From: Tribonema minus | Taxonomy: Eukaryota > Sar > Xanthophyceae > Tribonematales > Tribonemataceae | Direction: 5' to 3' | NCBI GenBank assembly: GCA_017506865.1 | Contig: JAFCMP010000057.1 | Span: forward strand, 434,001-498,000 | DNA: 64,000 nucleotides | Shown: positions 15,573-64,000 of the stretch, piece by piece | Layout: each line of letters starts with the position of its first letter | Position numbering within the stretch: position 1 is the first letter of the stretch | Notes under the pieces: generated by a model | What the model saw: only the letters and a program-made list of their open reading frames with translations | Told to the model about the DNA's origin: nothing | The model's database searches: none | Program-made: the position numbers and the translations under genes

Positions 15573-15586
15573 TGTACACATGCCAG
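15573..15586. repeat. Left target-site duplication of the truncated LINE
   Basis: TGTACACATGCCAG here is repeated exactly at 18316-18329, directly flanking the LINE fragment. Confidence 0.88.
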
Positions 15587-18315
15587 CTGGACTGTGAGAA
15601 CGCGTTTAACAGTGTGGATCGCGCCGCCATTGTGCGGGGCCTTATGCTCTTCTGTCCGGAGCTGCTCCCGCACTTTGAGTCCGTATACTGTGGCGACACT
15701 GCCCCAGAGATGCGAGTGGAGGTGAACAGCGAAGCTCGCATTATCTGCTCCCACCTAGGGCCCTCGCGTGCCAGCAAGGGGACCCTCTAGGGCCGCTATA
15801 CTTTGCAGTGGCAGCGGCCTTCCTGCTCTTCTACCCTGATGGAGTGAATGCGACGCCCGGCAGTATGCCGACCTACGGCCACAGCACAGCGGAACCGCCA
15901 GCCCCGCACTGCGCTTTCCTGGATGACCTCAACGTGCTGCAAGCTGCCTATTTCGACGATGCAGCGGCCGCTGGGGTGGCAGAGGTGATCCGCCGACTGG
16001 CGGCAGGGGGCTTGCGCGTTCGACCAGACAAGTCGCTGGCCATCGCCATGCGCGGCACAGTGTTTGATGAAGCGGCCAGAGCACGCCTGCGTGCCCTTAA
16101 GTGACATACCGTTTGTGGACGCCACCATGCCAGAGTCCAGTCAGGGCTTTACATCGGTCGGGGTACCGGTAGGGCACCCAGCCTATGTGCATGCTGCCAT
16201 GAGCAAGCATCTAATTGACGCAGGGACGTGGCGATTGTCGTGGCGGCTGGCTGGAATGGCGCGGCATCACCTACAGGCAGCACAGTTCATTCTGCGCAGG
16301 TCACTGACGAAGCGCATGGGCTTCTTAGCTCGGGTCGTTGACACGGCTTTGAGTGAGACATGGTTGCACGCGTTTGACGGGTTCTGTGCATGGACGCTCG
16401 AACGCATGCTGCACCTGCATGGCTGCGCTACCGCGGCAGCCATGAAGTCACACCTGCTGGCCGCCTGCACTGCTGGTGACAATGAGGAAGCCAGCAGTGG
16501 CAGCGTGCTGGTATTGCCACGCTTGGGCCCGCCAGAACTCACGGACATCGCAGTGCCGCTGCGGGCATCACGGTTGCCGGAGCGACGAGGCGGTCTGGGC
16601 ATGCCGCTTTTGGGGCTACTGGCACCAGCCGCATACACGGCCCAGGCATGCACAACCCTGCGGCCAGCAATAATTCATGCAACTGTGGCAGCAGGGGCCC
16701 TGAGGCTCGGTACTGACGAACAAGGCGCAGTCACCTGGTTTGCGCAGCACTCATGCGCAATTCGCGAGGACCAGGGGCTGCTGACAATCATCGAGGCCGT
16801 GCGACGCTCTACGCGAGCGCTGACAGCTGATGGCGGCGAAAAAACACGCACAGCTGTGGCCGAGCAGCTCCCAGCATCGTTGCTACGGTGGGCAGCAGAT
16901 ACGACGGCCGCAGCGTCGACGCTCCCCACTGCGGTGCAAGCGATCTACGCCGCAACTGCCGTCACGGAGACGGTGACCACTGAGCCAGCCCCATACACCC
17001 ACGGCATTGCGCCTGGCGCCGAGGCGACCGCTGCGGCGGCGACCGTACCTGGCCCTCAAGCCGCTGCCGCGGCTGCCTGTTCCACGCCCGCTAAAACACA
17101 AACTAGCGCGGAAGAAAGCAACTGCAGCGGCGGGCAAGAGGACGACGACGACGACGACTGGGAGGCCTATGCTGACGAGATCTGCAGGAAGGTAGTAGTG
17201 CCTCGCCGCCGGCGCGGCCACTTCACACACGGACTACAGGCCGGCCTTTCAAGTGTTCTTCCACGCCAATACGAGGATTGCCTGGTGAAGGACCTAGAGG
17301 CTGCCTCGGTTGGTGCCGAGGGCAAGCTGACGCAGGCTGCACCTATTGGTGACTCGCGCGACACCAGCCGCCGCCGCCAACAGGCTAGCGCGCGGGTCCT
17401 GGCGCAGCTGCGCAGCCAGCGTGCGTCCGGGGCAATGGCATTGATGAGCGTGCCACCCGCTGCCAATGACCGCCCAGGTGCGGCGCCCGTGTCCAGTATG
17501 GCAGCAGCCACGATGATTTTGGTTGCGATCTTCATAGACGGGTGGGGCATACAGGGCGAGGTGTGCCCATGGCGGTGCAGTGACGTGAGCCCCACCTCCA
17601 CGCATGCGATCAGCTGCCCCAGCCAGCACATACGGGGGCACAACGCGACACACACTGCCCAAAAACGGTGCGTGCAGCGCATCTTGAGACAGCACCATGT
17701 CTCTATTGTCCGCAATGAGGATGCTAGCGTCTTCAAGGTACCGGGGTATCGGGCGGACACAGTCATTGACCCAGGGTGTCTGCACTTTAGCAGTGCATAC
17801 CGTAACAAGGGAATAGTGCTAGACACAAGTGTGCGCGCGCCCACAGCGAGCTCGTACCTGACAGGCAAAACAAATGCCTCAAACACGGACGGCTATGCTG
17901 CTGGGGTGGGGGAGGACGCGAAGGTCAAGCACCACACCGGCACCTTGACGTCATCTTGGGCTGTTGTGCCATTCGTGCAGGAGTCGTACGGACGGCTGGG
18001 CAAGCAGACAAGACTTTTTGTCAAGGAGTTGGCAGTGCATTCAGCACTGTGCTCAGGGGGGGGGAAGGCAGATGTGTTACGCAAGGCTGGGTTAGCTAAG
18101 CGTCAGATCCTCATTGAGCTGAGCATGTCGCTGGCGCGGGAGTTGGCGAAGCGCGTCATGGCGTACACACGCGGAGCGCGAATGCTGGGCTGTGTTGCAG
18201 CGCCGGTGTCCAAGCTCCTAGGACACAGCGCAGACTAGGCTGCTGCGTTGACTTAAGCTTTTCGATTGCATAGGCAACCCGGCCTCCCTTGGGCCTCTAT
18301 AAATACAGGTCCATA
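15587..18315 (+). mobile_element. 5'-truncated copy of the RLE-type LINE (2.7 kb)
   Basis: This copy matches 37980-40692 of the full element, starting inside the reverse transcriptase gene at motif LDCENAFNSVD and running to the 3' end, at about 97% identity by eye. It is framed by the 14-bp duplication TGTACACATGCCAG (15573-15586 and 18316-18329), the mark of target-primed reverse transcription with 5' truncation. An 8-bp insertion near 15761 and a 4-bp insertion near 16100 break the frame; downstream the frame is open from 16064 to the stop at 18238. It lies in an intron of the inverted BAH pseudogene. No poly(A) tail is present at its 3' end. Confidence 0.93.
16064..18238 (+). pseudogene. 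LINE polyprotein C-terminal remnant (RT thumb and connection, RLE endonuclease)
   Basis: A 724-codon open frame corresponds to the last ~720 residues of the full-length LINE protein. It holds the post-RT region, an acidic stretch (run of D residues), the Cys/His cluster CPWRCSDVSPTSTHAISC and the endonuclease residues (YRADTVIDP, IVLDTSV, VPFVQESYGRLG). The catalytic RT motif lies just upstream in another frame. The copy cannot make a working polyprotein because it lacks the 5' two thirds, but the endonuclease region shows few substitutions, in keeping with recent insertion. Confidence 0.85.
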
Positions 18316-18329
18316 TGTACACATGCCAG
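18316..18329. repeat. Right target-site duplication of the truncated LINE
   Basis: TGTACACATGCCAG, an exact repeat of 15573-15586. Confidence 0.88.
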
Positions 18330-20892: not shown

Positions 20893-21077
<185 letters not shown>

Positions 21078-27000: not shown

Positions 27001-28917
27001 TCCTCGGGACAACGCTGCAGAAGGTGAGGGTGCAATGCGCTTGTGGGGAGTACCCTGTGTGCCACCTGCATGAAGCAAACTCGCTTGCAAATTATTACGG
27101 CGTCCACAGCATTGAAAACTGTAGTTTCATGGGCCAGTACTGAGTACATATTGAAACGTTACATGTAAGATGACCATTTTGCCTCATTTAGGGTGCATTT
27201 TGATAAGACCAACATTATCTTATCTGGTGGCATGTGCGTTTATGTGGTCGCACTGTGTGGAGTGCCTCCATTACTGAATGCTTGTTTGACAGCCAACAAC
27301 CAAGCACTTTTTCAACCGCTAAGTGCTATTGATGACCCACATTCAAATACGCCACCATCAAGGCTAATGTTGTGCTTTGAGCGCCTGTTTTCGCTCACGC
27401 TTTGACAACTGTTCTTGCACCTGGTATGATCATATTTGCATAGATGCTCACATTTTTGGTTCACTTTTTCGGCAGGTTGGACTGGCAACTTCTGCCCCGG
27501 GCAACCCTGTGGTCATTGCGCGTTCCAGCGGCAACTTCAGCTTCATTGAAATGCGCTCAATCGAGGACGCCAATGCCATGCTCAACCTCAACGGAATTCC
27601 ATTCATGGGCAGCACTCTCAGGGTGAGTGGGGCATGGCATGTTGCGCTGCACTGGAGTGCAATGTTGAATGCATCGCCCATCAGTTCGTCATCGACCAAC
27701 AACGATGTGCCACGCCATCGAAGCTGCATGAGTCATGTCTGACGCCTGACGTACCACCATTGTCTCACACATTGACTACTGCCATGGCACGTTGGACACA
27801 ATTTCTCACGTCACCTTCGCTCGCTCCTCTGAGCACTGCAGATCAGCCGCCCGGCCAAGTACGCAGGGCCCATGACCCCCGCCATGACGTGGCCTGACGT
27901 GCTGGCCCGTCTTGTTGCCCAAGGCGGCGGGGCAGACAAGGCCCTTGGCACGCCAGCTGCGCCCACGCAGCCCGCAACACGCGTGTTGAGGCTCAACAAT
28001 ATGCTGAGCGCTGATGACCTGGCTGATGAAGAGGGGCTGGCAGACATTGAGGAGGAGACCAAGGGGGAGTGCGCGACGTTCGGGCCCGTGAAGAAGGTGC
28101 ACATTGTGCGGCCCAGCACTACGGACGCGGCTGCGGAGAAGACTGCCACGGGCGTGGGGTATGTGTTTGTGGAGTTTGAGGAGGCGGACGCGGCCAGGAA
28201 GGCCATGCTCAGCCTGAGCACGCGCACGTTTGACAACAAGAAGGTGTGTTTGTGCTTGCAAAAGTGCTGGTGCTGATGACAATGATGGCAATAGTGACAC
28301 CTGAAGGAGCTCCTACATTCACCAGCATGAATGTGGCACTGATTTCGAGTGCAACATTCACTGTCAAAGCACAGAACATGGATGCCAGCAAATTGGTGCA
28401 TATCTGAACAGATGTCATTGCTGCATTTAGGAAGCATACCGTGGTCGGCGGCTGCTGTTGGGACTTACTTCGGTTATTCGCCTGCATATCCAGACTACCA
28501 GCCTTCTACCTCGAAGTATACACCAAATTCCAGCACAGGTTAACCATGCAGCTGATGATGAAACACCAGCAGATGCAGCGGCAGAGTTTATGCACCTGCT
28601 GCTGTACTAGAGATGCCTTCAAAGTGCTGCCTCCTGCTCATGTAGTCTGCAGAACCTTGCTATGTCTCTTCAAGTGATGGTGTGTAATGGAGTGCAACAC
28701 CTCTTGCACGGACATGGTGCCATGCTCATATCATTTTGATGTGGGCGCTCGCTACTTGATGTGGATTTGACTCTGATTTTAAGTGGTATGTTCTAGCTGC
28801 GTTACATGACTTTGTGCTCTAAGCAATCACTGATGCTCATGTTGTACCCTGCAGGTGGAGGTGACGTTTTGGCCAGAGGAGAAGTTTGCACAGGGTGACT
28901 ATGGCGACGGCCCCTAG
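24016..28917 (+). CDS. U2AF2: Splicing factor U2AF large subunit (U2AF65-like), complete, 9 exons
   Basis: U2AF65 binds the intron polypyrimidine tract and recruits U2 snRNP in the nucleus. Exons: 24016-24089, 24297-24528, 24998-25123, 25684-25773, 26314-26556, 26985-27023, 27476-27622, 27842-28243, 28855-28917 (stop TAG). All borders are GT-AG and phases agree. The start ATG opens MDGDRRRRRSRSREDSRSRS, the Arg/Ser domain. A Met/Pro/Gly-rich linker (PAPGMPTPGMPMPGM) follows. RRM1 begins LELFVGNTPPNTSEF and includes FAFIELRSVDE. RRM2 begins RELYVGNVQPTMTE and includes FSFIEMRSIEDANAML. The C-terminal UHM-type RRM starts RVLRLNNMLSADDLADEE, has the acidic helix and YVFVEFEEADAARKAM, and ends FWPEEKFAQGDYGDGP. 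About 470 residues, normal for the family. PUF60 or CAPER-type relatives are less likely given the RS-RRM-RRM-UHM order and the U2AF-like UHM. Confidence 0.93.
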
Positions 28918-30929: not shown

Positions 30930-30941
30930 GTACAACACCTT
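30930..30941. repeat. Left target-site duplication of the full-length LINE
   Basis: GTACAACACCTT here recurs at 40693-40704 immediately after the LINE 3' end, defining both element boundaries. The base before it is T, giving TGTACA in the original site. Confidence 0.85.
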
Positions 30942-31241
30942 CGAGTGCTGCACGGGCGAGCGGCAGGAGGAGGCAGCGAAGGAGGAGCCGCTGGCGGAGC
31001 GGCGGCGCGGAAGGCGAGGATGCACAGGGGACACTGAGGGCACAGCAGCACCGCACGCTCAACCTGTCGGCCTGGCTACAGCCGAGGACTAGAGAGCGGA
31101 TTTTCGCTCCACCGCGGGCCTGAGGCGAACAAGGCCAGACACGCAGCGTGGGTCGCCGGTGTAAGCAAGTAAGCCTCGCATTGATATTGCTAAAGCTACC
31201 TACGCACACAGCGACATCGGCCGAAGCACAAGAAGGGCAAA

Positions 31242-31273
<32 letters not shown>

Positions 31274-31761
31274 ATCAGACGATATCGCCGTCGACGGATC
31301 GGGAAGGGGGAACCTAGGGCACACTGGATCGCAGGGCAGTAGATAGCACTTCACCAGATTAAGGTTTGAACGCTTGCTGACCAGCTTGATTTGCAGCCGC
31401 ACAAGGGACCCCGCCTGGCAGAGACTGACTGCATTCAGCACACGCACAGACACGACAGGACCACGACACTGCAGCGGCAAGGACACGAAGTGCACAGCAT
31501 TGCATTCAGCCCAGCTGCCTTGTGTTGGTCAGAGGCAGAGAGCTTGAGCACACCGACTCGTTCCACCACCGCTCGTTTCACGACGGCGGGAGAAGCACCT
31601 CAACAGATACACCAGAGCAGGACGGGATCTTGAACTGAAAGTGGTATAGTTGTGCAGGGGAGTGTTCGCGGTAGGCAGCCGCGCATTCGAGACCGAGCCT
31701 GGGCTTTTTTTTTTTTTTTTTTTTTTTTTTTTCTCGCGCCTCAAAGTCGCCTTTCAAAGCT
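30942..31761 (+). promoter_or_regulatory. LINE 5' leader with a poly(A) tract and a poly(T) tract
   Basis: The leader starts CGAGTGCTGCACGGGCGAGC directly after the target duplication. It contains about 30 A at 31242-31271 and about 26 T at 31706-31731, roughly 435 bp apart, which could pair into a long hairpin. LINE leaders carry internal promoters in known families; no specific promoter motif is recognised here. Confidence 0.5.
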
Positions 31762-34700
31762 ATGGCTCTCCACTGGCTTACCAGCCCTGCCTCACGTGGG
31801 GAGGGGTCACCTCTGAAACGCAAACGGGAACAGCGCAACCACGGGCTGAATACTGGCTTGTGGTGGTGGCAGGTCAAAGCTGCACGCCAATCTGACACAC
31901 GCCGCAGACGCCGCCATGGTGTTGGCCGTTGGGTACGCCTAGTGATACCGCCGCCGCCACCGATCCCGGGCCCGCCGCCAATCCCGGGCCCGCCGCCGAT
32001 CCCGGGCCCGCCGCCGATCCCGGGCCCGCCGCCGATACCGGGCCCCCCGCCGATACCGGGCCCGCCGCCGATACCGGGCCCACCGCCGATACCGGGCCCG
32101 CCGCCGATACCGGACCCGCCACCGATACCCGGCCCGCCACCACCTCAGCTGATGGCCCAGAGCTCTAGACCGCGGCCGATGCCAGAGGTGCCAGTGTGCA
32201 GTCAGGTTGCAGAGCTGTGCAGAAGCATGCGCAGACTACACTTGTCGTCAGCCGACTCGGACGAGCCTCAGGGCAGTGGCAGCCACGCGCACGTCAAGAA
32301 GCGCCGCCGCCATCTGTCTAGCCCAGGTGCCGCTAATCACTGTGACAGGGGATGCTCACAGACGAAGCGCCCGCGGCATCAGCCTGCCAGTGACTCGGAG
32401 TCTCAAGCGGCGAGTTTACGGGAGGCACTGCCGCCAGCAGCGATGATTGTACTGAGCTTGGTGGTACTACCGCCACCAGCGGCAAATAAACGCCGTCGGG
32501 CGACACTGCCGCCGGATTCACCAGTAGCGACAACGCCAATGCCAAAACGACGTTCGCGGCGGAAAACGCCTTTAGTGACGGCTGCCACTGCCGCACCAGC
32601 GGCGGGGCCCGCACCGGCCAACCCGGTGGTTGCACAGCCACGGACGACTGTCACAGCCGCCGCTGCATGCGGTCGCAAGGTTACCTCCGACTTAACGGCG
32701 GCGGCAACGCCACGTGCGGCAGACATGGTGCCAAAACCGCCGGCAGGCGCTGCCGCATCAGATGGCCAACGCGGGGCAGCTGCATCCCGGCGGGGTCGGC
32801 GTCGCGGCGCCAGCGCCGGGCCGCCCCCGGGACGCCTCGGAAGCATTGGCAGCATCAACCGCCCAGAGTCGCCGTCTGGCAAACTGAGTGCGCTGGCAAA
32901 GGCGGTCACCACGACCGTGCCCGTACCGATGGAAGTTGGCGAACCTACCAGTGGGCCAGCGGGTCACCAGAGACGGATCACGTCGCGGCCTTCGCAGCCA
33001 GCTAGCAGCGGCGCCTCTCCCCAGTGGCATCCCGGTCCTCAGCCGATGGAGGTCACCGCAGCGGAAACCTCATGTACTGCAGACATGGTGACAACAGCAC
33101 CAGCGGCCGCAGCGGCTGCTGCACCGGGCGGCGAACGTGGGGCGGCTGCACCCCGGCGGGGTCGGCGCCGCGCCAGCGCCCAAAGCACTGGCAGCGTCAC
33201 CCGTCCAGAGCCACAGTCTGGCGGTGCGCTGGCAAAGCCGGTCACCGTGACCATGCCTGTACCGATGGAAGTTGGCGAACCTGGGCCGGCGGGTCACCAG
33301 AGACGAATCACGTCCCGGTCTTTGCAGCCAGCTGGCAGCGGCGCCTCTCTGTCAGGCGGCAGCGTCACCTCTGACGGTAACAGTCGCAACGGGCACCCAA
33401 TATCCGGCATCACCGCTATGACATTTTTGGCGCCCGCCAAGACACCCGCTGCCAACCGGAAGGTCAATATCCCGGGGCTGGACTGCCGCATGTGCGACAA
33501 GTTCATAGTGCGAGCAAATCCTCGGGCCCCGGGAAAGAATTGCCCAGCGGCACACGCATGTGCACACCAGCGCACGCGCCACACAGGGAAAGGGAAGCAA
33601 TTTGCAGAACTGCATGTTCAGCTTTTCCTAGACCATCGACCAATATGCGGCGGCCTGGAGCAGGTCTGCGATGGGTGCGGCAACCTCTTCATCAGACGCA
33701 CAGCAGCAAGCGCCACGACACCATCTGGTGATCTAGGGGCCCTGGACCAGTGCGACGTGTGGCGCTGCGCCGACTGCCTCGCAGGCCCGGTCGCCGCGAC
33801 AGCATGCACACTCTCAGGCTGTGACCGTGCATCAGGCCATGATCACATTGCTGACATACACACCCGACCAACGACATGCGCGGCGGCAGCGGGTGGTGCA
33901 GCTGTTGGTGGGGGGAATAGCCTGAAGCCAACAGCCGCGCTGCTCGCCGCCGCTAGCAAATGTGGTCCCATACGCAAAATCCTCGGATGCGAGCACCTGG
34001 GGGTAGACCCCAGGCAAGCCCATGCATCTACGTTGGACGGTGTGGCAGATGCGCCGCTGCCGAGACTGACCCGGAGCAGCACAATGGGTGTGCTGCCTGG
34101 CGAAAGTCGTGCTAGCGATAGCGGCGCAACGATGTCAAGCAACGATCGTGTGCCCAGCACACCTGGCAGTGCCGCAGCTGCTGTCGCAGCGGGCGCTCAG
34201 TCTAGCGAATGCCCCAGGGACCCGACGGGATCACACTGGCAAGGCCTGCTGGGGGCGGCTGGCGCACTCGCGCGCAGGGTACGTGCACTGGCCCTTGCCC
34301 CCAATCGGGCACGCGTCACGGTGCTTTGCGCTTGGCCGACGGGTACCAAGCTTGGACCCTGCCGCACGTCACGCCGACTGCATATGCGGCCGGCGCCCAG
34401 CGACGCGCCAGCAACACAGACCCTGCTGGGCCGGACTTCCTGCGCACCGCTGGCGAGTCAGATGCATGACCTGACGGTCACGTTCAGCTTGCTCTCCCTC
34501 CGAGAAGAAGGTAATGACCTGGCAACGGTGTTTGACCAACTCTCCCTTAGGGAACCGGTCGTTGCCAGGTCGCCTCGCCAGCCAGCCGGGAAACGTGGTG
34601 AGTCAGACGTAACGCAGGCTGGTGATAACAGCACCCACGCAACAATGACCGAGACAGCACCTGTCACGGCTATGGTTGCCAGTGGAAAGCGCAGTCGACG

Positions 34701-37700
34701 CAGAGGTAAACACAGACGGCGGACGCAGGAGCGACAGGCCCAGTGCGACAATTCTCGTGCACCCCTGGCACCAGCCACCACACCGCCGAGGGGCGGTGCC
34801 TCTGCCCCCTCAGCACCAATATCCGGGCCGGCGAAGGTCACCACCGTGACGGTGGCGACCCGGGTACCCTCAACCGTGTGCCATACAGTCACCGTGGAGG
34901 AGCAGCAAGACGCGCTGGCAAAAGCCACCAACTATGGTTTTTCCACTTGGCACACGGGCCTGCAGGCACTCCACAAACAGGCGCTTGGGGAAAACACAGC
35001 GACGCTAGCACGTGGTGGGGAGCTTCGCCCCGTGAGCAACGTGGGCAACGGCAACTGCCTGATTCATACAGCTCTACACGGCATAGGCAGCGTCGCAGTT
35101 GAGCACGGACTGCCGGCCCCAGCACTGGTGATTGCCATGCGAGAGGCACTGCTGGACGGGATGGTGGCATACGTCACGCAGGGGGCAGGCAAACAAGGGG
35201 CCAGCATGTCATCGATGCGTCAACTGACCGCGCATGCAGCAGCCCAACCTGCGTGTACACGTGAACAATTCGACACGTACGGGACACGCGCTCGCTGCCT
35301 CGCAATCGAGTACGGCACAAATGAAACGGACAGCGCGGACAGCGGGCACACGCTCCTGCTGCAACGCCTACAGGAAGAGGGCGTGTGGGGACGGCCCCTC
35401 GGTTTGTCTGTGTGGGCCATTGTTGCAGCGGTCTACGCGGTCTCGGTGACGGTGTGGCAGGCCGAGCCTCAGGCCACTGGCAGCACGCAAAAATCAACAG
35501 GGCTGGTGCTGGCACAACTGATGGGGCTGCCAGCGGTATTCGCACCGGTAACTCCAGCTCAGCCTGACTGCCATCTGGATGTGCTGTGGACGCCGCCTGG
35601 GCTATATACAAATGTGGGACACTTTGAACTGCTTGTCGCCCCTGCGGCAGCTCCGCCCTTGCCAACCACTATGACAGCATCGGCGACCACTCAAGCTAAC
35701 AGCACCCACATCACGGCTCCGAGTCGGACACAGCCCCGTACTGCGCTACAGTTGCCGCAGCAGCCTGAGCCACTGAGGTGTCCTTTATGCACACTGGCAT
35801 TTTGGCAGCTTGGTCAGAAAGAGGACAGCAAACAGCGAGGCAAACTGTCAGCTGCGAGCCGCATGGCACCGGTAGTGGCCCACTTCAACGGTGGTAGCTG
35901 CACGAGGTCGATGCTGAACCCTGAGGCGAGCACATCACACTGTCAGCAAAATCTGGCGGCAGCATACGCCAAGGGCATCCGGCAGCAGGTTGATCACGAC
36001 CCATCCGGTGACCGTGCCCCTTCAGGCAGCAGTACCTGCAACACTGGGGCACACCATGCCAAGCGTGTGCAGGAGATGAGCACCATGTATGGTTGCACGG
36101 CAGAAGACTTCCTACGGGCGGTAAGGAAGCTGAGTGCATGCACAGGTGCCTGCGGTCTGGTCCATATGTCAGCCAGCGCGGGGCAGAGGCAATGCGCGCT
36201 GACCTCGCCATGCCACACGTGTCGACGGAATGGAAGCGCCCCCACGCGCGCACGCCCGGCAGTACCCCCGGGCCAGTCCGAGGGCGGGGGTGCGGGTAGC
36301 GACGGCGCGGCCGCGGCGGCGGGGGCTGCCGCAGCGACACCTCCAAAGCCACCGGCGGTGCCGGCTAGTGGCGCTGCCAACTCAAAGTCCAGCAAGAAAC
36401 GCCCGGCGGCCACGGCAACCGGCGCGCAACGCCGGCGCCGAACGGCAGCTGCTGCGGCACCGCCTGGCAGCGCCGGCAGCCGCACTCAGTCTAACAGCCT
36501 AAGGCTGCAGGACAGCAGCCCCCCCCACGGGACGGCCGTGGGATGGGCGGACATGGACTTGGACCCGCCGGACGATGCCGCGTCACCGCCCCCCCCGACC
36601 ACCACCACCAGTGGCAGGCCCTCAAAGCCCCAGTCACGAGCATCCCTGGCTTGGGACCTCTCGACGCCCTCGGTCGTCCACGCACTTGACCAGACCAATG
36701 AGGCGGATCTACTGCTGCTACGGTTCACCACGACTGCCAACCCCTTCCGCACTCAGCTGCAGTGCACCCAGTGGGCACGGCTAGTGGAGCACGCCACACG
36801 ACTACTGGCGGACGCCACAGACAGTGCACGTGAGGCGGCACGGGTGCGCCTCCACCATGGTGCCGGGGCGTTTGCTCATCAGGTTTTTCAGACTCTAGTG
36901 CAGCGCGGCTACAGGCTGCTGCACCTGCTAGCAGCAATGGCCTTTGGTAGGCAACCGGAGGGAACCGGTATGCCGCCTGCGGCCCGGCTGGCAGCGTTGC
37001 TGTCTGGCGACTTTGCGGAGCTACTGAGAAAGACGCTGTCAGCAGCAGCGGCGCTGCGGGCCCCCAAACCAAACAACGCAGCTACGGCGTCGGCACAAAC
37101 GAACTTCGATGCCGACTGGACGGAGGCTGACTCCAGGCAGCAAACAGCATGCGCTGCCCTCTCAGGCAAGCGACGGGGGGTAGGCCTGGCTGCCGCACGA
37201 CTAGAGGCGCGTGAAGCATGCGCCCCAGCAGACGAGGTCACGGCACAGGTGCTGGCAGCAAAGCACCCTGAAACTGGCACCCGGCCCGGGGTAGTCGATA
37301 CGCCAATGGAGCAAGTGCGCGGCCTGGTACGCGACGCCCGGCGGCACTGCTTGCACGGCGCAGGGGTGGCAACGACCGCCGGGCCCGCTGGCAGCGGCAG
37401 TCCCGTCTTCGAATCGGGTCAGGCGCATGATCGCAGCGATAGGCCTGAGGATGCTGCCAGCGCAGCCGGACGGCGCCTCGAGGTGGAGGCGACAGACATA
37501 CTGTCGACCTTGTCCGCAGCAGGGGCGGGGAAGGCAGGAGGGCTGGACGGCCTACGCTATGAACACCTCTTGATGGCCGCTGGGCCTGGTGCACCAGTGA
37601 AAGCAGCCACCCGCCCCGTGGGCAGTGCCTCGCCAGGACTAGCTGGTGATTCAGAATCGGATGTGATGGAACCGGCATTCGCCCATCACCTGGCCAAGGT

Positions 37701-40614
37701 GTTCACGACGCTGCTTGTTGAGCCCGAACTGCTGCCGGAGCAATCGCAACGGCTTCTCCGCGCCGCGGCCCTCTCAGGCATAGGACAGAAGCGGCGTCCG
37801 ATCGCCTGCTCCAGTGTCTGGCGCAGACTCCTCGGGTCCACAGCGGCACGGGGTGTCAAGGGCAAAATATCGGGGCTGCTGGCCTCCATGTCGCAGTTTG
37901 GCGTAGGATACCGGTCTGGCGTCGAGCATGTGGCAGCGCGCGCGCGCGTGTGGCACGAGCTGTATGGCACCACAATCCAGCTGGACTGTGAGAACGCATT
38001 TAACAGTGTGGATCGCGCCGCCATTGTGCGGGGACTTATGCTCTTCTGTCCGGAGCTGCTCCCGCACTTTGAGTCCGTATACTGTGGTGACACTGCCCCA
38101 GAGATGCGAGTGGAGGTGAACGGTGAAGCTCGCATTATCTGCTCCCACCTAGGGTGCCAGCAAGGGGACCCTCTAGGGCCGCTGTACTTTGCAGTGGCAG
38201 CGGCATTCCTACTCTTCTACCCTGATGGAGTGAATGCGACGCCCGGCAGTATGCCGGCCTACGGCCACAGCACAGCGGAACCGCCAGCCCCGCACTGCGC
38301 TTTCCTGGATGACCTCAACGTGCTGCAAGCTGCCTACTTCGACGATGCAGCGGCCGCTGGGGTGGCAGAGGTGATCCGTCGGCTTGCGGCAGGGGGGCTA
38401 CGCGTTCGACCAGACAAGTCGCTGGCCATTGCCATGCGCGGCACAGTGTTTGATGAAGCGGCCAGAGCACGCCTGCGCGCCCTTGACATACCGTTTGTGG
38501 ACGCCACCATGCCAGAATCCAGTCAGGGCTTTACGTCGGTCGGGGTACCGGTAGGGCACCCAGCCTATGTGCATGCTGCCATGAGCAAGCATCTTGTTGA
38601 CGCAGGGACATGGCGATTGTCGTGGCAGCTAGCTGGGATGGCGCGGCATCACCTACAGGCAGCACAGTTCATTCTGCGCAGGTCACTGACGAAGCGGATG
38701 GGCTTCTTAGCTCGGGTCGTTGACACGGCTTTGAGTGAGACATGGCTGCACGCATTTGACGGGTTCTGTGCATGGACGCTTGAACGCATGCTGCACCTGC
38801 ACGGCTGCGCTACCGCGGCAGTCATGAAGTCACACCTGCTGGCCGCCTGCACTGCTGGTGACAATGAGGTAGCCAGCAGTGGCAGCGTGCTGGTATTGCC
38901 GCGCTTGGGCCCACCAGAACTCACGGACATCGCAGTGCCACTGCGGGCGTCACGGTTGCCGGAGCGACGAGGCGGTCTGGGCATGCCGCTTTTGGGGCTA
39001 CTGGCACCAGCCGCATACACGGCCCAGGCATGCACAACACTGCGGCCTGCAATAATTCATGCCACTGTGGCAGCAGGGGCCCTGAGGCTCGGCACTGACG
39101 AACACGGCGCAGTCACCTGGTTCGCGCAGCACTCATGCGCAATACGCGAGGACCAGGGACTGCCGCCAATCATCGAGGCCGTGCGACGCTCTACGCGAGC
39201 GCTGACAGCTGATGGCGGCGAAAAATCACGCACAGCTGTGGCCGAGCAGCTCCCAGCATCGTTGCTACGGTGGGCAGCGGATACAACGGCCGCAGCGTCG
39301 ACGCTCCCCACTGCGGTGCAAGCGATCTACGCCGCAACTGCCGTCACGGAGACGGGGACCACTGAGCCAGCCCCACACACCCACGGCATTGTGCCTGGCG
39401 CCGAGGCGGCCGCTGCGGCGGCGACCGTACCTGGCCCTCAAGCCGCTGCCGCGGCTGCCTCTTCCACGCCCGCTAAAACACAAACTAGCGCGGAAGAAAG
39501 CAGCTGCAGCGGCGGGCAGGAGGACGACGACGACGACTGGGAGGCCTATGCTGACGAGATCTGCAGAAAGGTAGTGCCCCGCCGCCGGCGCGGTCACTTC
39601 ACGCACGGACTACAAGCCCGCCTTTCAAATGTTCTTCGACGTCAATACGAGGACTGCCTGGTGGAGGACCTAGAGGCTGCCTCGGCTGGTGCCGTGGGCA
39701 AGCCGACGCAGGCTACACTTATTGGTGACTTGCGTGACACCAGCCGCCGCCGCCAACAGGCTAGCGCGCGGGTCCTGGCGCAGCTGCGCAGCCAGCGTGC
39801 GTCCGGGGCAATGGCGTGGATGAGCGTGCCACCCGCTGCCAATGACCGCCCGGGTGCGGCGCCCATGTCCAGTATGGCAGCAGCCACGATGATTATGGTT
39901 GCGATCTTCATAGACGGGTGGGGCATACAGGGCGAGGTGTGCCCATGGCGGTGCAGTGACGTGAGCCCCACCTCCACGCATGCGATCAGCTGCCCCAGCC
40001 AGCACATACGGGGGCACAACGCGACACACACTGCCCAAAAGCGGTGCCTACAGCGCATCTTGAGACAGCACCATGTCTCTATTGTCCGCAATGAGGACGC
40101 TAGCGTCTTCAAGGTACCGGGGTATCGGGCGGACACAGTCATTGACCCAGGGTGTCTGCACTTTAGCAGTGCATACCGTAACAAGGGAATAGTGCTAGAC
40201 ACAAGTGTGCGCGCGCCCACAGCGAGCTCGTACCTGACAGGCAAAACAAATGCCTCGAACACGGACGGCTATGCTGCTGGGGTGGGGGAGGACGCGAAGG
40301 TCAAGCACCACACCGGCACCTTGACGTCATCTTGGGCTTTTGTGCCATTCGTGCAGGAGTCGTACGGACGGCTGGGCAAGCAGACAAGCCTTTTTGTTAA
40401 GGAGTTGGCAATGCACTCAGCACTGTGCTCAGGGGGGGGGAAGGCAGATGTGTTACGCAAGGCCGGGTTAGCTAAGCGTCAGATCCACATTGAGCTGAGC
40501 ATATCGCTGGCGCGGGAGTTGGCGGAGCGCGTCATGGCATACACACGTGGAGCGCGAATGCTGGGCTGTGTTGCGGCGCCGGTATCCAAACTCCTAGGGC
40601 ACAGCGCAGACTAG
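31762..40614 (+). CDS. LINE polyprotein: proline repeat, zinc-finger-like clusters, OTU-like protease, RT, RLE endonuclease (2950 aa)
   Basis: Residues ~64-127 are a PPPIPG hexapeptide repeat with ten IP(G/D)P steps. Residues ~320-420 and ~440-530 are a tandemly duplicated basic/proline module (each with RGAA(A/S), RRGRRR and VPMEVGEP). Cys/His clusters occur at ~575 (CRMCDKF), ~636 (CDGCGNLF) and ~1340 (CPLCTLAF). An OTU-like domain spans ~1090-1290: GNGNCLIHTAL with Cys1099 and GHFELL with His1287; the usual Asp of DGNC is Asn. The reverse transcriptase is at ~1915-2270, with LDCENAFNSVD (Asp2075), GCQQGDPLGP and the active site FLDD at 2181-2184. The C-terminal RLE has CPWRC (2727-2731), a His/Cys cluster, YRADTVIDP (Asp2791), IVLDTSV (Asp2813) and VPFVQESYGRLG (~2861). 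Start is the first ATG of the frame. The predicted role is target-primed reverse transcription; the OTU-like domain may process the polyprotein or act on host ubiquitin, which is inference. Confidence 0.92.
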   Translation: MALHWLTSPASRGEGSPLKRKREQRNHGLNTGLWWWQVKAARQSDTRRRRRHGVGRWVRLVIPPPPPIPGPPPIPGPPPIPGPPPIPGPPPIPGPPPIPGPPPIPGPPPIPGPPPIPDPPPIPGPPPPQLMAQSSRPRPMPEVPVCSQVAELCRSMRRLHLSSADSDEPQGSGSHAHVKKRRRHLSSPGAANHCDRGCSQTKRPRHQPASDSESQAASLREALPPAAMIVLSLVVLPPPAANKRRRATLPPDSPVATTPMPKRRSRRKTPLVTAATAAPAAGPAPANPVVAQPRTTVTAAAACGRKVTSDLTAAATPRAADMVPKPPAGAAASDGQRGAAASRRGRRRGASAGPPPGRLGSIGSINRPESPSGKLSALAKAVTTTVPVPMEVGEPTSGPAGHQRRITSRPSQPASSGASPQWHPGPQPMEVTAAETSCTADMVTTAPAAAAAAAPGGERGAAAPRRGRRRASAQSTGSVTRPEPQSGGALAKPVTVTMPVPMEVGEPGPAGHQRRITSRSLQPAGSGASLSGGSVTSDGNSRNGHPISGITAMTFLAPAKTPAANRKVNIPGLDCRMCDKFIVRANPRAPGKNCPAAHACAHQRTRHTGKGKQFAELHVQLFLDHRPICGGLEQVCDGCGNLFIRRTAASATTPSGDLGALDQCDVWRCADCLAGPVAATACTLSGCDRASGHDHIADIHTRPTTCAAAAGGAAVGGGNSLKPTAALLAAASKCGPIRKILGCEHLGVDPRQAHASTLDGVADAPLPRLTRSSTMGVLPGESRASDSGATMSSNDRVPSTPGSAAAAVAAGAQSSECPRDPTGSHWQGLLGAAGALARRVRALALAPNRARVTVLCAWPTGTKLGPCRTSRRLHMRPAPSDAPATQTLLGRTSCAPLASQMHDLTVTFSLLSLREEGNDLATVFDQLSLREPVVARSPRQPAGKRGESDVTQAGDNSTHATMTETAPVTAMVASGKRSRRRGKHRRRTQERQAQCDNSRAPLAPATTPPRGGASAPSAPISGPAKVTTVTVATRVPSTVCHTVTVEEQQDALAKATNYGFSTWHTGLQALHKQALGENTATLARGGELRPVSNVGNGNCLIHTALHGIGSVAVEHGLPAPALVIAMREALLDGMVAYVTQGAGKQGASMSSMRQLTAHAAAQPACTREQFDTYGTRARCLAIEYGTNETDSADSGHTLLLQRLQEEGVWGRPLGLSVWAIVAAVYAVSVTVWQAEPQATGSTQKSTGLVLAQLMGLPAVFAPVTPAQPDCHLDVLWTPPGLYTNVGHFELLVAPAAAPPLPTTMTASATTQANSTHITAPSRTQPRTALQLPQQPEPLRCPLCTLAFWQLGQKEDSKQRGKLSAASRMAPVVAHFNGGSCTRSMLNPEASTSHCQQNLAAAYAKGIRQQVDHDPSGDRAPSGSSTCNTGAHHAKRVQEMSTMYGCTAEDFLRAVRKLSACTGACGLVHMSASAGQRQCALTSPCHTCRRNGSAPTRARPAVPPGQSEGGGAGSDGAAAAAGAAAATPPKPPAVPASGAANSKSSKKRPAATATGAQRRRRTAAAAAPPGSAGSRTQSNSLRLQDSSPPHGTAVGWADMDLDPPDDAASPPPPTTTTSGRPSKPQSRASLAWDLSTPSVVHALDQTNEADLLLLRFTTTANPFRTQLQCTQWARLVEHATRLLADATDSAREAARVRLHHGAGAFAHQVFQTLVQRGYRLLHLLAAMAFGRQPEGTGMPPAARLAALLSGDFAELLRKTLSAAAALRAPKPNNAATASAQTNFDADWTEADSRQQTACAALSGKRRGVGLAAARLEAREACAPADEVTAQVLAAKHPETGTRPGVVDTPMEQVRGLVRDARRHCLHGAGVATTAGPAGSGSPVFESGQAHDRSDRPEDAASAAGRRLEVEATDILSTLSAAGAGKAGGLDGLRYEHLLMAAGPGAPVKAATRPVGSASPGLAGDSESDVMEPAFAHHLAKVFTTLLVEPELLPEQSQRLLRAAALSGIGQKRRPIACSSVWRRLLGSTAARGVKGKISGLLASMSQFGVGYRSGVEHVAARARVWHELYGTTIQLDCENAFNSVDRAAIVRGLMLFCPELLPHFESVYCGDTAPEMRVEVNGEARIICSHLGCQQGDPLGPLYFAVAAAFLLFYPDGVNATPGSMPAYGHSTAEPPAPHCAFLDDLNVLQAAYFDDAAAAGVAEVIRRLAAGGLRVRPDKSLAIAMRGTVFDEAARARLRALDIPFVDATMPESSQGFTSVGVPVGHPAYVHAAMSKHLVDAGTWRLSWQLAGMARHHLQAAQFILRRSLTKRMGFLARVVDTALSETWLHAFDGFCAWTLERMLHLHGCATAAVMKSHLLAACTAGDNEVASSGSVLVLPRLGPPELTDIAVPLRASRLPERRGGLGMPLLGLLAPAAYTAQACTTLRPAIIHATVAAGALRLGTDEHGAVTWFAQHSCAIREDQGLPPIIEAVRRSTRALTADGGEKSRTAVAEQLPASLLRWAADTTAAASTLPTAVQAIYAATAVTETGTTEPAPHTHGIVPGAEAAAAAATVPGPQAAAAAASSTPAKTQTSAEESSCSGGQEDDDDDWEAYADEICRKVVPRRRRGHFTHGLQARLSNVLRRQYEDCLVEDLEAASAGAVGKPTQATLIGDLRDTSRRRQQASARVLAQLRSQRASGAMAWMSVPPAANDRPGAAPMSSMAAATMIMVAIFIDGWGIQGEVCPWRCSDVSPTSTHAISCPSQHIRGHNATHTAQKRCLQRILRQHHVSIVRNEDASVFKVPGYRADTVIDPGCLHFSSAYRNKGIVLDTSVRAPTASSYLTGKTNASNTDGYAAGVGEDAKVKHHTGTLTSSWAFVPFVQESYGRLGKQTSLFVKELAMHSALCSGGGKADVLRKAGLAKRQIHIELSISLARELAERVMAYTRGARMLGCVAAPVSKLLGHSAD
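31951..32142 (+). repeat. 18-bp minisatellite encoding the PPPIPG repeat of the LINE protein
   Basis: Tandem CCGCCGATCCCGGGCCCG-type units, about ten copies with GATCCC/GATACC variants, lie in frame in the ORF. Reverse-strand and shifted open frames here are shadows of the repeat. Confidence 0.9.
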
Positions 40615-40692
40615 GCTGCTGCGTTGACGCAAGCTTTTCGATTGCATAGGCAACCCGGCCTCCCTTGGGCCTTTATAAATACAAGTCCATAC
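40615..40692 (+). other. LINE 3' UTR
   Basis: The segment from the stop to the target duplication is shared with the truncated copy (18239-18315): it starts GCTGCTGCGTTGAC, includes GGCAACCCGGCCTCCCTTGG, and ends TATAAATACA(A/G)GTCCATA. This short conserved tail is probably what the RT recognises. There is no poly(A) or simple repeat at the end. Confidence 0.8.
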
Positions 40693-40704
40693 GTACAACA
40701 CCTT
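40693..40704. repeat. Right target-site duplication of the full-length LINE
   Basis: GTACAACACCTT, a repeat of 30930-30941. Confidence 0.85.
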
Positions 40705-48354: not shown

Positions 48355-48620
48355 AAATTTTAAATAAATAGGCAAGGAGGCCGGGTTGCCATGCAATCGA
48401 AAAATTTGCACCAACGCAGCAGCCTAATACAGTTTTCGCTGTGAATCCGGGCGTGTGTGAACCGCATCCTGCGCGCCACGTCGTGGCAAATGCAACGTCG
48501 CCGCGCGCTAGCTACCACGCATGTAAAGCCCTTCAGCGCAAATCTCGTGGCGCAGGCAGCGGCAGCTCGAAGGCTAGTAGTCATGGGCGCTGCACAGCCC
48601 CACGCTCGCCATGACGATCG
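48355..48620 (-). mobile_element. Truncated 3' end of a related LINE, minus strand
   Basis: Read on the minus strand, about 48430-48360 matches the 3' UTR of the full LINE (AGGCTGCTGCGTTG, TTTTCGATTGCAT, GGCAACCCGGCCTCC, then a T/A-rich tail). The match is clearly more diverged than the 15587 copy. Upstream coding similarity fades quickly, so the copy is probably a short 5'-truncated insertion of a sister subfamily; the 5' limit is approximate. Its 3' junction, like the other two, reads into GTACA (TACGTACAAAG on the minus strand). Confidence 0.6.
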
Positions 48621-59658: not shown

Positions 59659-60300
59659 GCCACTGCTGAATATAGCTGCTTTGGAAAAAGTACAACTTTG
59701 AGTACAATAAGATGCACCGCGGCGGCACAGCCTCATTTCCGCTTATGCTATATCCTGCGCATGAAGTTCACGAGAGCACGCTACACTAGTTCATTGTGCA
59801 AACCTCAGCCATATGTGCTGTGTGTGCTTCTAGATTGTGCACTAACAAGGACTGAATTTGCCAGTCCTGATGGAATTTCACGTTGGCTTGTTCCAACTTG
59901 AACAGGAGCCAGCTGGTTGCAGTTGTGTTGCATGCAGCCACACACATGGTAGCCTGCAGCGCGTCAAACCCCATGAGCTGCAATTCATGGTTCCCTTACC
60001 TTGTGTCCGGACCGTGCCGTAGTGTTCGTTTCATATCCTGACAGCGGGACAAAGCCGTGAAACCGTGGCGTTGCATGATGACGTCACTGCTGAATCAGGA
60101 AGGGGAAATGGGTTGGTGTATGTAGACTCCGGCAACCGTCAATATCGTATCAAGAAGATTCAATAGTTCGTAATTATGATAGCAAGCTATCACACTTGTG
60201 TGCGCACATAGAACATACTACCCGTGAGGGCACTGGCAGTACAGGAAGAGTGAATCACAAGATCATCGGCCTTGGCATGACCAGCGCCTGCGACATCTCT
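59659..60300. other. Downstream flank of the BAH-domain gene; nothing recognised
   Basis: The interval contains the 3' UTR of the BAH gene. No open frame with protein-like character and no repeat beyond short motifs was seen. Confidence 0.5.
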
Positions 60301-62157
60301 GATACTGCGTAATACGATGTGGCGAGCACGCTGCAAGCACTGCAACCAGCACTCTCTGGGTGGGCAGCCTGAGGGGTGCTGCAGCAGGCGACTCCACTGG
60401 CAGGACCTCAAGCCGCGGCAACGTAACGGCCCGGGCATTGCTGAGGATGCGGCAACACAAGCGGTGCCGGCTGCAGTGCCTGTAGCAGCAGCACGTAGTA
60501 CTAGCACTACCAACAGCAGCAGCAACGGCAACAGCGGCACTGGCACTGGCAGTGGCGGTTGAAGGCGCGACCACTCCGGCAGCAGCAAGTGCATCAGCGG
60601 CAGGCCGCGCTGCCGCCGCAGCGGCAACAACCGTAATGGTTACAGAACTGAGTCTAGCGGCTGCAGTGCCGCACTGGCTGCAAGCGGCACAGCCGCTCCA
60701 GTGCCGGCCGTTAATGGCGCAGCCATTCTGGTGACACACGGCGCAGCTGCCGCTGGACCAGTGGCCACGGCGGCAGCACAGGCAGCACCAGCGGCAGCAG
60801 CAGCGGCAGCGCACGGCACAGCTACATACTTCGTCGGCAGCAGCAGCGAACAGTTTCAGCTGCTGCCTCAGAGGCCGCTGCGGCATCACATGTTGTACCT
60901 CCGAGTCAGGCTACCTCGGCGGCGTCACTAGCAGCAGCATCAACGGCAGCTGCTGGCATAGGCAGCACAGCTGCTCTGCGGCCGCCCCAGAGCAGACTGA
61001 GTGCCACAGTGCACCACTCAGTGCACCACAGGCAGGGGCAGCGGCAGCAGGCAGCGCTGCAGTCGTGCCAGCGCCGACAGCGGCAAGGGCAGTGGCAGCG
61101 GCCAATGTGGCAGGTGCCGCACTTGCACCTGCCGCAACGGCAGCAGCAACACCGTGTTCTGGGGGGAGGGAATTTTTTGATACAATCCGCAATTTATCAA
61201 GACACGCCCCGAGGTCGCGGCAGGCGTGTGCGTCCGGGGTAATTGCCGGTAGGCTTGATCAAGGCCTTTCCTGTTCAATTTTCTGAAGCCAACCACACAG
61301 ATCTCTTCAAGGTTTTGAAACTTCAACTTTCACTTCAACTTTAACTTCCTTCAACTTGAAGTTGAAATGAAAGATTTTGGATCGTGGAGATGATGTTGTA
61401 GTTAAAAATTTTGAAAGTGGAAAAGGACTTTCAAAAGGATTGAGCCTTTTTCGGCCTGGATTTCACAGGGCGTGTCCGCCGGCCTCACTGTGGCACCCGT
61501 GGTGCCTTCCGATCTCGAGAATTGGCGTATTGTTTCAAAAAATTCCCTCCGATGTTACACCAGCAGCAGCAACGGCAGGCGGCGCAGCTGCTCCAGGCTG
61601 AGCGCACGCAGCAGCGGCAGCCGTCGATGCAGGCGCTGCGCGTCCCACATCAGCAATGCTACAACTTCAAGTTGAACTTGAACGTGCAGCAGCAGCTGCT
61701 AGCAGCAGAGCCTCGGTGGCGCACCTGCCCCTTTCAAGTCACCTATGCGGACGATCACCACAGCTGCCGCATCCTTGCGTGCGACAACAGGTGACAAACT
61801 AGAACATCTACTGCCAGCAGCCCTATTATATGCCACTGCAGCAGCAGCAGCCTGGCAGCAGCCACCTATGCAACAGCCGCCGCCGCCAGCAGGTGGTGGG
61901 ACTGGAGCTGCGGACGCTGCTTGTGGTGTACTTGATGTCAGTGCTATGCAGTTGCAGTGCAGCCAGAGGCGCCTTAATCAGAGTGTGCGTGCAGATTCGT
62001 CGTCCCCGAGCTGACAGATGAAGTTGAGGCGGACCTGCCACTGTTACAGCTGCCCCAGGCCCTGGGCACGCAGCGTACGCAAGCACTTCAAGGCTTGCTC
62101 GATTCCGATCGCAGCGCCACATGCACTTGATCGGCATATGGCATTTCTCAACTTCCA
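60300..62157. repeat. GCA/CAG-rich low-complexity region
   Basis: Interrupted GCA, CAG and CGG triplet tracts dominate 60440-61160 and 61560-61960, giving spurious Ala/Gln/Ser-rich open frames on both strands. Short protein-like stretches (for example ARCKHC near 60324 and FVVPELTDEVEADLPLLQLP near 61998) suggest this may be decayed coding DNA of a repetitive-protein gene or transposon, but nothing is continuous. Confidence 0.6.
61165..61550. mobile_element. Fold-back / MITE-like element with inverted ends
   Basis: The left end GGAGGGAATTTTTTGATACA is matched by the reverse complement of the right end (GGAGGGAATTTTTTGAAACA). Similarity extends about 36 bp with several mismatches, and more loosely to about 50. 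The interior is non-coding, with CTTCAACTT-type repeats near 61320-61360. I could not find a convincing target-site duplication, so the superfamily is open. Confidence 0.55.
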
Positions 62158-62892
62158 GTGCACCCTACAACGGCTGCATTTGACGGAATGCCTTGGCAGC
62201 TGGCGTTGAAGCATTCCATCAGAGTAGAGCAGCAGGCTTCGCGCTGCAAGCTGTCACGGTGCAGGAAGTCGCTGGGCGGCAGTTTGCACGCGCGGCTCTG
62301 TCAAGCACCATGCACCAAAGCACATTACACCATTGCGCACAACAGCGTCAAGCGGGCCACACAGCGCATGCTGAACACACGGCTGGTTGACGAGGACTAC
62401 ACGCCATTCCTGACGTCTCCGGCAGATCCCAGGATTGACATCGTGCTGCCTGCCAACGCCTTTCCGGTCAATGGCTACGATGACAAGTCGCGTCAGGAAC
62501 GGCTCATGGTGGACGTCGCCTACTACGAGGCACAGGTGCAAGCGGCGACTCGGAAGACTGCAGGGGACCCCATGCATGCGGTGCTGCCACGACCAAGAGG
62601 CCATCAAACTGACTACGATCAGAATTGCTACAAACTTGCCAGTTTGGCAATCGGGCAACGTGGCCGCAGGGGCAGAAGCTTTTGGAAGTCATTGCTGCAG
62701 AGTGCGCAAGCAGGATGTCGGTTTCTGCAGCAGCTTCTCCTCCGAAAGGCACATGTACTTGTAGCACTGGCGCGCATACGCTCAGCTCTCTCGGCAGCGC
62801 TCCACAAAGTATGTAGCGCAATGGTGGCCTATGGTGGCTGGCAAATGTGGAGTCCAATGAGCCCCGGGGTGGACACATGTACGAGGAAGTAG
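62158..62892 (+). pseudogene. Orphan RLE-type endonuclease fragment of an older LINE
   Basis: The 244-codon frame has the order seen in the RLE region of the intact LINE: a Cys/His stretch (CRKSLGG...CQAPC...H), AHNSVKRATQRML, then PRIDIVLP, ERLMVDVAYYEAQVQ and NCYKLASLAIGQRG, comparable to the intact element's HNATHTAQKRCLQRIL, YRADTVIDP, IVLDTSV and VPFVQESYGRLG. Similarity is at motif level only, so this belongs to a different, older lineage. No RT is found upstream; the preceding 1.8 kb is triplet-rich. The start given is the first in-frame start of the open frame, not a proven initiation site. It could alternatively be a host gene derived from such an element. Confidence 0.45.
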
Positions 62893-64000
62893 TGGGGGGG
62901 GAGATGCCATGCATGCACTTGGCGATGCTGTTCTGAAATGAGTGTCAGTATGCATTGGTCTCAAAAACACCTTTTCATAAGATGCACAACATGTAGACTC
63001 TGGTAGCAAGGTTGAGGGCGACCATCTGGGCTTTTTCGCGCCCTAAGCAAAAATCAATGAGAGGTACAATTTAGGCTTTTTCGCGCCCTGAGCGTGAATC
63101 AACAAGGTATAATTTTGCTTAGAAGTAATTGTTAATGCGCATTGCGACACTTTCAGGTTTTCACAAAGTACATGATATAAGCCGTAGCTCCTCGGTCATC
63201 GGTCATGAATGTTGGAAGGGTAAGCAGTGGACGGCTGGCAACCTCGAGGGTTCACACCAGACCACTGTGGCACACCCTACTACACGTACACAGGCATGCC
63301 ACACTATGCAACCGCCATGCTACCGCAGCCCCCCCCCCCCCCGGTTGCCAGGCCCCCACCCCTGTCACAAATGCCGCTGCCACCACTGGCAGGCAGCAGC
63401 TGCCGGCACTGGCCTGCAGGCAACTGAGCGCCGCCATCGCCCTACCATTACCCGCAATCCCCCCCGCGTGCTCAGTCCCAGTGCTGAAAACTGCACTAGC
63501 CCCTACAGCAACTATCACCACTACTGCCCTCGCCAGCTGTTGCACAACTCCCCAGCAGCGTCACGCTGCTCCCACCCCAACCCCTCACACACAGTGCTTC
63601 GTCAATTGATATCTGCTGAGCCTGCAGGCGCACGCATCGCTCTGCAAACGGAGCCCGCCGGGACCCCTGCCCCGCCTGCACCCCGGGCCACTTCCCTGTG
63701 CAGCCACGCGAGTTTGTACTTTTTATTAATTCTCGCTCGGGGCGCCAGAAAGCCCAGATGAATGAATGGCATCTAACTTGAAGCTTGCTGTACGGAACTA
63801 CATGTCGTGTGACAGTCTGAAAGTGTCTTAACGACAACCACTCAAACGCCGCCGCCGCCAAATGGCATCTCGGGATCCGCCCCTACTTCCTCCTCCATGT
63901 GCCCCCCCCCCCTGGATTCTGCCATGTTTGTCATGACACGGCCAGAGTACGCCATGTGGAGCACTGCCGACAGTGCCGAGCGTAAGCGCGCCAGGGCGAT
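62893..64000. other. Proline/cytosine-rich right edge with weak coding signals
   Basis: A 44-bp imperfect tandem pair (units starting GGCTTTTTCGCGCCCT at about 63029 and 63073) is present. Plus-strand 63227-63420 reads GFTPDHCGTPYYTYTGMPHY then a proline run, and a frame from about 63924 (MFVMTRPEYAMWSTADSAER) is open to the window edge, so a gene may begin here. Poly-C runs at about 63331 and 63902 make frames unreliable. Confidence 0.3.

Follow-up and report, generated by a model that had tools for sequence, protein, structure and literature searches.

The element carried by this 64,000-nucleotide stretch of Tribonema minus DNA (the window, a term used here for the whole stretch analysed) raises the question of how a LINE with a putative restriction-like endonuclease (RLE) chooses its insertion sites, and whether its 2950-residue protein includes an OTU-like protease. 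We refer to the family of this element as family A and to a second RLE LINE, also present in the window, as family B.

The complete element and its copies

The complete family A copy and its parts are as follows.

30930..30941, no strand: 5' target-site duplication GTACAACACCTT, sequence read
30942..40692, + strand: complete family A LINE copy, 9751 bp between exact 12-bp repeats
30942..31761, + strand: 5' UTR; A tract at 31239-31272, T tract at 31705-31732
31762..40614, + strand: single ORF, 2950 aa, stop included
31954..32138, + strand: 18-bp tandem repeat encoding PPPIPG units, 8-10 units (20 copies counted)
33472..33831, + strand: N-terminal Cys/His-rich zinc-finger-like stretch, aa 571-690, read by eye
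35044..35634, + strand: OTU-like stretch, aa 1095-1291 (Cys 1099, His 1287), from motifs and a weak profile score
37789..38802, + strand: reverse transcriptase (RT), aa 2010-2347 (LDCENAF, GCQQGDP, FLDD), from Pfam, motifs and the alignment to family B
39940..40377, + strand: CCHC knuckle and putative restriction-like endonuclease, aa 2727-2872 (D2791, D2813, K2846)
40615..40692, + strand: 3' UTR, terminal AAGTCCATAC, without poly(A)
40693..40704, no strand: 3' target-site duplication GTACAACACCTT, sequence read

An intact single-ORF LINE between exact 12-bp repeats had been predicted at this locus and was found as described, with a frame free of internal stops over all 2950 aa and GTACAACACCTT on both sides of 30942-40692. 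The G+C content was 64% in the ORF (5704 of 8853 bases) compared to about 52-55% in the flanking 2-kb blocks. The predicted LINE RT was supported by Pfam RVT_1 at aa 2040-2223 (E 1.6e-6), which scored 28.4 bits in the whole protein, just below the curated cut-off of 29.6, and 31.6 bits, above the cut-off, in the segment alone, and by the presence of RT motifs A, B and C. No Pfam domain besides RVT_1 was detected in the protein (whole protein at E 1; aa 551-2950 at E 10), PDB sequence searches returned nothing relevant for the whole ORF, the OTU-like stretch, the RT, the family B RT or the RLE alignment, and the fold of the 3' UTR was no better than that of shuffles (z 0.21). The A and T tracts of the 5' UTR are spaced by about 430 nt; the T tract (22-30) was present in 20 of 20 copies, and the A tract measured 18-30 in eight copies and 8-9 in twelve, length classes that suggest two subfamilies.

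The genome searched comprised 158 Mb in 554 contigs. The last 793 bases of family A were found at 40 places at about 100% identity (best 40 of 1304 first-look candidates) with one adjacent partial match besides, and the 5' UTR at 40 places at 97-100% (best 40 of 142 candidates), further matches consisting solely of poly-A or poly-T. The OTU region was found at no fewer than 149 places with 99-100% protein identity (best 149 of 393 candidates), an open frame of at least 2900 aa being present at 53 of the 149, and this count of near-identical genomic copies bears out the earlier view of a complete and recent copy. A variant scan that covered up to 2214 coding bases in each of 30 copies (five copies were shorter and one had a 6-base gap) identified 26 coding variants, 11 synonymous and 15 non-synonymous, with a ratio per site of 0.47. 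Twelve variants were present in at least two copies, eight synonymous and four non-synonymous (ratio 0.17), and the comparison of shared with single variants gave a Fisher P of 0.045. Across the OTU stretch, five copies displayed 15 variants, eight synonymous and seven non-synonymous (ratio 0.31). The numbers are small, and they fit a young family in which the multiplying lineages keep the ORF.

A second family A copy, absent from the original prediction, lies in the same window and is flanked by a 13-bp duplication.

15574..15586, no strand: 5' duplication GTACACATGCCAG of the second copy
15587..18316, + strand: second family A copy, 95.5% identical, with a truncated 5' end and a broken frame
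18317..18329, no strand: 3' duplication GTACACATGCCAG of the second copy

A divergent short relative of the family A 3' UTR was also observed at 48376-48426 (- strand; 90% identity over 52 bases), ending on GTACGTAC; used as a query it gave 37 matches, and the four other loci that were read proved to be family A copies. Elsewhere in the window, exon-like frames at 24265-24822 and 27833-28273 resemble, by eye, the large subunit of the splicing factor U2AF, an uninterrupted (CA) repeat of 56 units occupies 20941-21053, and Rfam and tRNA searches of the window returned no match. At another locus (L190), the LSU rRNA consists of N over positions 2501-2800, and the SSU and 5.8S are readable. The SSU rRNA of the genome is eukaryotic by Rfam and looks stramenopile-like to us.

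GTAC at the insertion sites of two families

The exact last 22 bases of family A occurred 1046 times in the genome (503 and 543 by strand), and GTAC followed directly after 848 of these 3' ends (81%; 409 and 439). A reversed-pattern control for the 3' end with GTAC gave 0 occurrences, and the local GTAC background was 172 in the 50,780 window bases outside family A copies (0.34%). The same flanks recur on different contigs (C389, C65 and C318; C419 and C62), so the figure of 1046 overcounts insertions. Among the 72 distinct 3' flanks read first, 58 started with GTAC, the remainder comprising six GTGC, three GTAA, two GTTC, two GTCC and one GTTA, and across all distinct flanks 85 of 102 began with GTAC. 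The information content of the flanks was 1.89, 1.92, 1.35 and 1.74 bits at positions 1-4, 0.42 bits at position 5, where a weak preference for A was observed, and at most 0.07 bits at positions 6-12. With 19% of exact 3' ends off GTAC, the word is a strong preference of family A and not a strict rule.

A word that follows 81% of exact 3' ends could be merely the last four bases of the element, and the two ends of each insertion bear on this directly. A total of 35 family A copies were read at both ends (33 fetched and two in the window; the copies on C389 and C65 have the same flanks), and the duplication was taken as the longest part of the 3' flank that recurs at any point in the 5' sequence of about 160-280 bases. 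Duplications of 9-14 bp were found in 16 of the 35 copies, 15 of them beginning with GTAC and one with CTAC, and in this last case CTAC stands on both sides of the copy. The other 19 copies displayed no clear duplication (14 with an uninformative match of 4-7 bp and five with none). By eye, a 12-bp duplication, GTACAGTATCAC, was also recognised around an 88-nt remnant (L187). Since the duplications start with GTAC, the word belongs to the insertion target rather than to the element; the reading of GTAC as the element's own end is contradicted by these duplications and, in addition, by a family with a different 3' end that also sits on GTAC (family B, below), and is almost certainly wrong. The original prediction made no mention of duplications beginning with GTAC, but its point that insertion of RLE LINEs is usually site-specific gave a useful lead, the site here being GTAC.

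Two pieces of family B lie near the end of the window.

60240..62806, + strand: decayed family B copy, pieces 72-76% identical to the full copy
63720..64000, - strand: family B 3' end, 90% identical to a full copy, running out of the window and abutting GTAC at 63716-63719

The RLE region of the decayed copy was found at 150 places (best 150 of 1247 candidates), with identities of 56-59% except for the query itself. A full family B copy at L191 has an ORF of 1786 aa in which the RT is the sole Pfam domain. The 3' end of family B, CGAGAATTAATAAAAA, is unlike that of family A. Fifteen copies on the + strand with frames of 1763-1786 aa were chosen for reading, and all 15 were on GTAC (17 of 17 tails); duplications of 9-13 bp were found in nine, all beginning with GTAC, and none was clear in the other six.

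Copies were observed both one behind another and tail-to-tail on a shared GTAC. Two family A tails on one GTAC were found at five places on three contigs (one on C26, two on C59 and two on C257, those on C59 and C257 possibly being local repeats), two family A flanks (L098, without the one mismatch seen in L118, and L118) continued past GTAC into the reverse of a family B tail, and a family B tail with GTAC was present in the 5' stretches ahead of two family B copies (C41, C190). A third tail type, GCTGCTATAAATACAAGATCATAA, with GTAC was seen ahead of two family B copies (L191, at about 440-470, and C195) and one family A copy (C137). The stretch before a further family B copy (L220) matches neither the A nor the B protein.

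The endonuclease and a proposed route of insertion

Alignment of the two proteins gave 28% identity over 341 aa in the RT (E 3e-20), 22% over 223 aa in the RLE (E 8e-6) and 35% over 66 aa in a stretch ahead of the RT (E 0.002), with a weak match of the N-terminal fingers at aa 571-643 of family A (E 0.05). The patterns CX3CX8HX3C at 2727 in A and CX2CX8HX3C at 1552 in B are the sole match in each protein. The text available from PMC5678591 describes the knuckle of the R2 group as CX2-3CX7-8HX4C, placed before the endonuclease, compared to which the last spacing in A and B is 3 instead of 4. The same text gives the RLE signature as PD-(D/E) with a distant K in KX2KY (PMC5678591). Residues assigned by eye are R-A-D (2789-2791), L-D (2812-2813) and K2846-VK-HH in A, and R-M-D, V-D and K-TT-HY in B, so that relative to that description the P is replaced in both families and the Y is H in A (PMC5678591). 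Pfam and PDB sequence searches of the RLE region gave no match, and an AlphaFold2 model of the family A RLE (pLDDT 34) was uninformative. The C-terminal RLE proposed earlier is supported by the homology to family B and by the order of the motifs, with some departures from the described motif.

Family A is probably a recently active, autonomous RLE LINE whose insertion proceeds by target-primed reverse transcription, with the 4-bp palindrome GTAC as its target. The basis for this reading is in the sequences, namely the 3' end joined to GTAC, the GTAC-first duplications of 9-14 bp, the 5' truncations and the same target in family B. Direct 3' joining, duplications and 5' truncations are marks of target-primed reverse transcription, and both target-site duplication and 5' truncation are present in family A. 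During insertion, a bottom-strand nick would fall on the outer edge of GTAC, made by the RLE, perhaps together with the knuckle and the N-terminal fingers. The 3' end released there would prime copying from the 3' end of the element RNA, and the top strand would be cut 9-14 nt further on. Recognition of GTAC may reside in the RLE or in the knuckle and fingers. Because GTAC reads alike on both strands and is duplicated each time, the site could accept another element, either behind the first or opposite it, which would account for the adjoining and tail-to-tail copies.

Selection of GTAC might also occur through annealing of the primer, with nicks made more widely and only GTAC ends priming, by pairing with the GUAC of a read-through RNA. 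GTAC is self-complementary, and a nicked strand ending in GTAC could pair with RNA ending in GUAC, such as copies standing on GTAC could give; however, two families with unlike 3' UTRs would need the same trick, and exceptions such as GTGC and GTAA would pair incompletely. We consider annealing an improbable explanation and prefer an endonuclease directed to GTAC itself.

Many relatives among the RLE LINEs aim at long repeated genes, and family A aims mostly at the four letters GTAC. Site-specific insertion is studied in RLE LINEs, where long rDNA sites make the determinants of the target hard to dissect; two divergent families on one four-base target make recognition by the RLE, knuckle and finger directly testable. 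Families A and B also show that a LINE can be sequence-specific yet spread genome-wide.

The OTU-like stretch and comparison with known elements

The OTU-like protease claimed for the protein is plausible, though not established. The motifs GNGNCL at 1095, WG at 1209 and GHFELL at 1286 were identified in the family A protein, and the order Cys box, WG, H-aromatic, which is that of OTU proteases, was obtained in 0 of 20,000 shuffles of the segment, for a motif picked after it had been seen. The Pfam OTU profile gave no match on the family A protein at E 10, a PDB sequence search of the stretch gave no match at E 10, and PF02338 had 22 matches in the same genome, none at the family A places among the best 149 listed. 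A profile built from five OTU domains found in this genome (three in host-like genes and two in Helitron-like ORFs) scored the segment at 6.5 bits, with 2 of 2000 same-composition shuffles higher and an alignment degenerate to one residue. Structure prediction of the stretch, which the original prediction had proposed as a check, was run with AlphaFold2 (single-sequence, without alignment) and returned a mean pLDDT of 40, uninformative on the fold. An unrelated Cys/His region that is no OTU protease would be consistent with the failure of Pfam and PDB sequence searches at E 10 and with the shuffles that beat the profile score; against it stand the ordered motifs, and family B, searched with the same patterns, displays neither the box nor the order. 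We regard this explanation as unlikely, and an OTU identity of the stretch, made plausible by the ordered motifs, as likely.

BLAST of the OTU-like stretch likewise gave no match in family B, and in family A the stretch sits between segments that match family B. Since the OTU-like domain is seen in A and not in B, it was probably gained (or lost) within this lineage. Its role is a matter of guesswork: it might deubiquitinate, protect or process the protein of the element itself. A Pfam-recognised OTU domain was found in two large ORFs of the same genome (L182, L184), which we take to be Helitron-like, placing OTU in another transposon class. An OTU-like protease has been described in Helentrons, according to the text available from PMC6431247.

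In our reading, families A and B are RLE LINEs that target 4 bp, and one of their branches would have gained an OTU-like domain. Whether they form a distinct RLE LINE clade, with a restriction-enzyme-like GTAC target, self-built landing sites used in both orientations and one branch that captured an OTU deubiquitinase, is close to evenly balanced, and we propose such a clade tentatively. The GTAC specificity of family A is new here; a search of the open-access literature, a weak test, found no report joining LINE target-site duplication with GTAC and, among the matches listed, none that pairs a restriction-like endonuclease with GTAC. No relatives were found in a viral contig set (RT and OTU queries) or in a genome contig set (RT query). 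RVT_1 matches in the same genome were considered as relatives and rejected, as the eight loci among the matches listed belong to one Ty3/gypsy-type family, seven by their reading frames and one (L002) by 95-96% DNA identity to these.

Family A could alternatively be a Dualen (RandI) element in which the APE and RNase H have been lost or are hidden from Pfam. Kojima and Fujiwara are said to have reported in 2005 that Dualen also has an RNase H and a cysteine protease, and the cysteine protease of Dualen/RandI is a likeness to family A. We know of no GTAC target for Dualen. Dualen is a known group with both RLE and APE in the sections available from PMC4640811 and PMC3636483, the RLE being shared with family A (PMC3636483), and LINE/Dualen is described as expanded in cryptophytes in the accessible part of PMC12747079. 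Pfam found neither an APE nor an RNase H in the 2950 aa, and the related family B shows the RT alone by Pfam, both of which are weak tests. The earlier statement that no APE is present agrees with the Pfam result, itself weak as Pfam also misses the OTU. Dualen may be nearest to family A in parts, and we hold membership of that group to be possible, if rather doubtful, and assign the element to no clade.

R2 inserts at a 28S rDNA site and is not known to carry an OTU-like domain. Its order of RT, CCHC knuckle and RLE, with the catalytic K far downstream (as described in the available text of PMC5678591), resembles that proposed for family A. Utopia/NeSL elements resemble family A in having a long protein that combines N-terminal fingers, an RT, a single finger and an RLE, whereas the protease that some of them carry is Ulp1-like, unlike the OTU-like stretch of family A (PMC4640811, in the sections available). 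Among the targets named there are U2, spliced-leader, tRNA and 28S genes as well as microsatellites, but no 4-bp word (PMC4640811). A Utopia-type insertion into U2 snRNA genes was rejected for family A, the 102 distinct flanks having only GTAC in common and the window having no Rfam match to U2.

The nearest system in behaviour is EhLINE1 of Entamoeba, whose RLE, with CCHC and PD...D motifs (accessible text of PMC3118788), resembles the putative RLE of family A. Its endonuclease prefers GTATT, and one hot spot of nicking coincides with a site of insertion (PMC3118788); GTATT has GTA in common with GTAC, but is no palindrome. Compared to EhLINE1 as described in that text, the elements analysed here have GTAC at 81% of family A ends and at 15 of 15 family B copies, an OTU-like domain, and copies that share a site.
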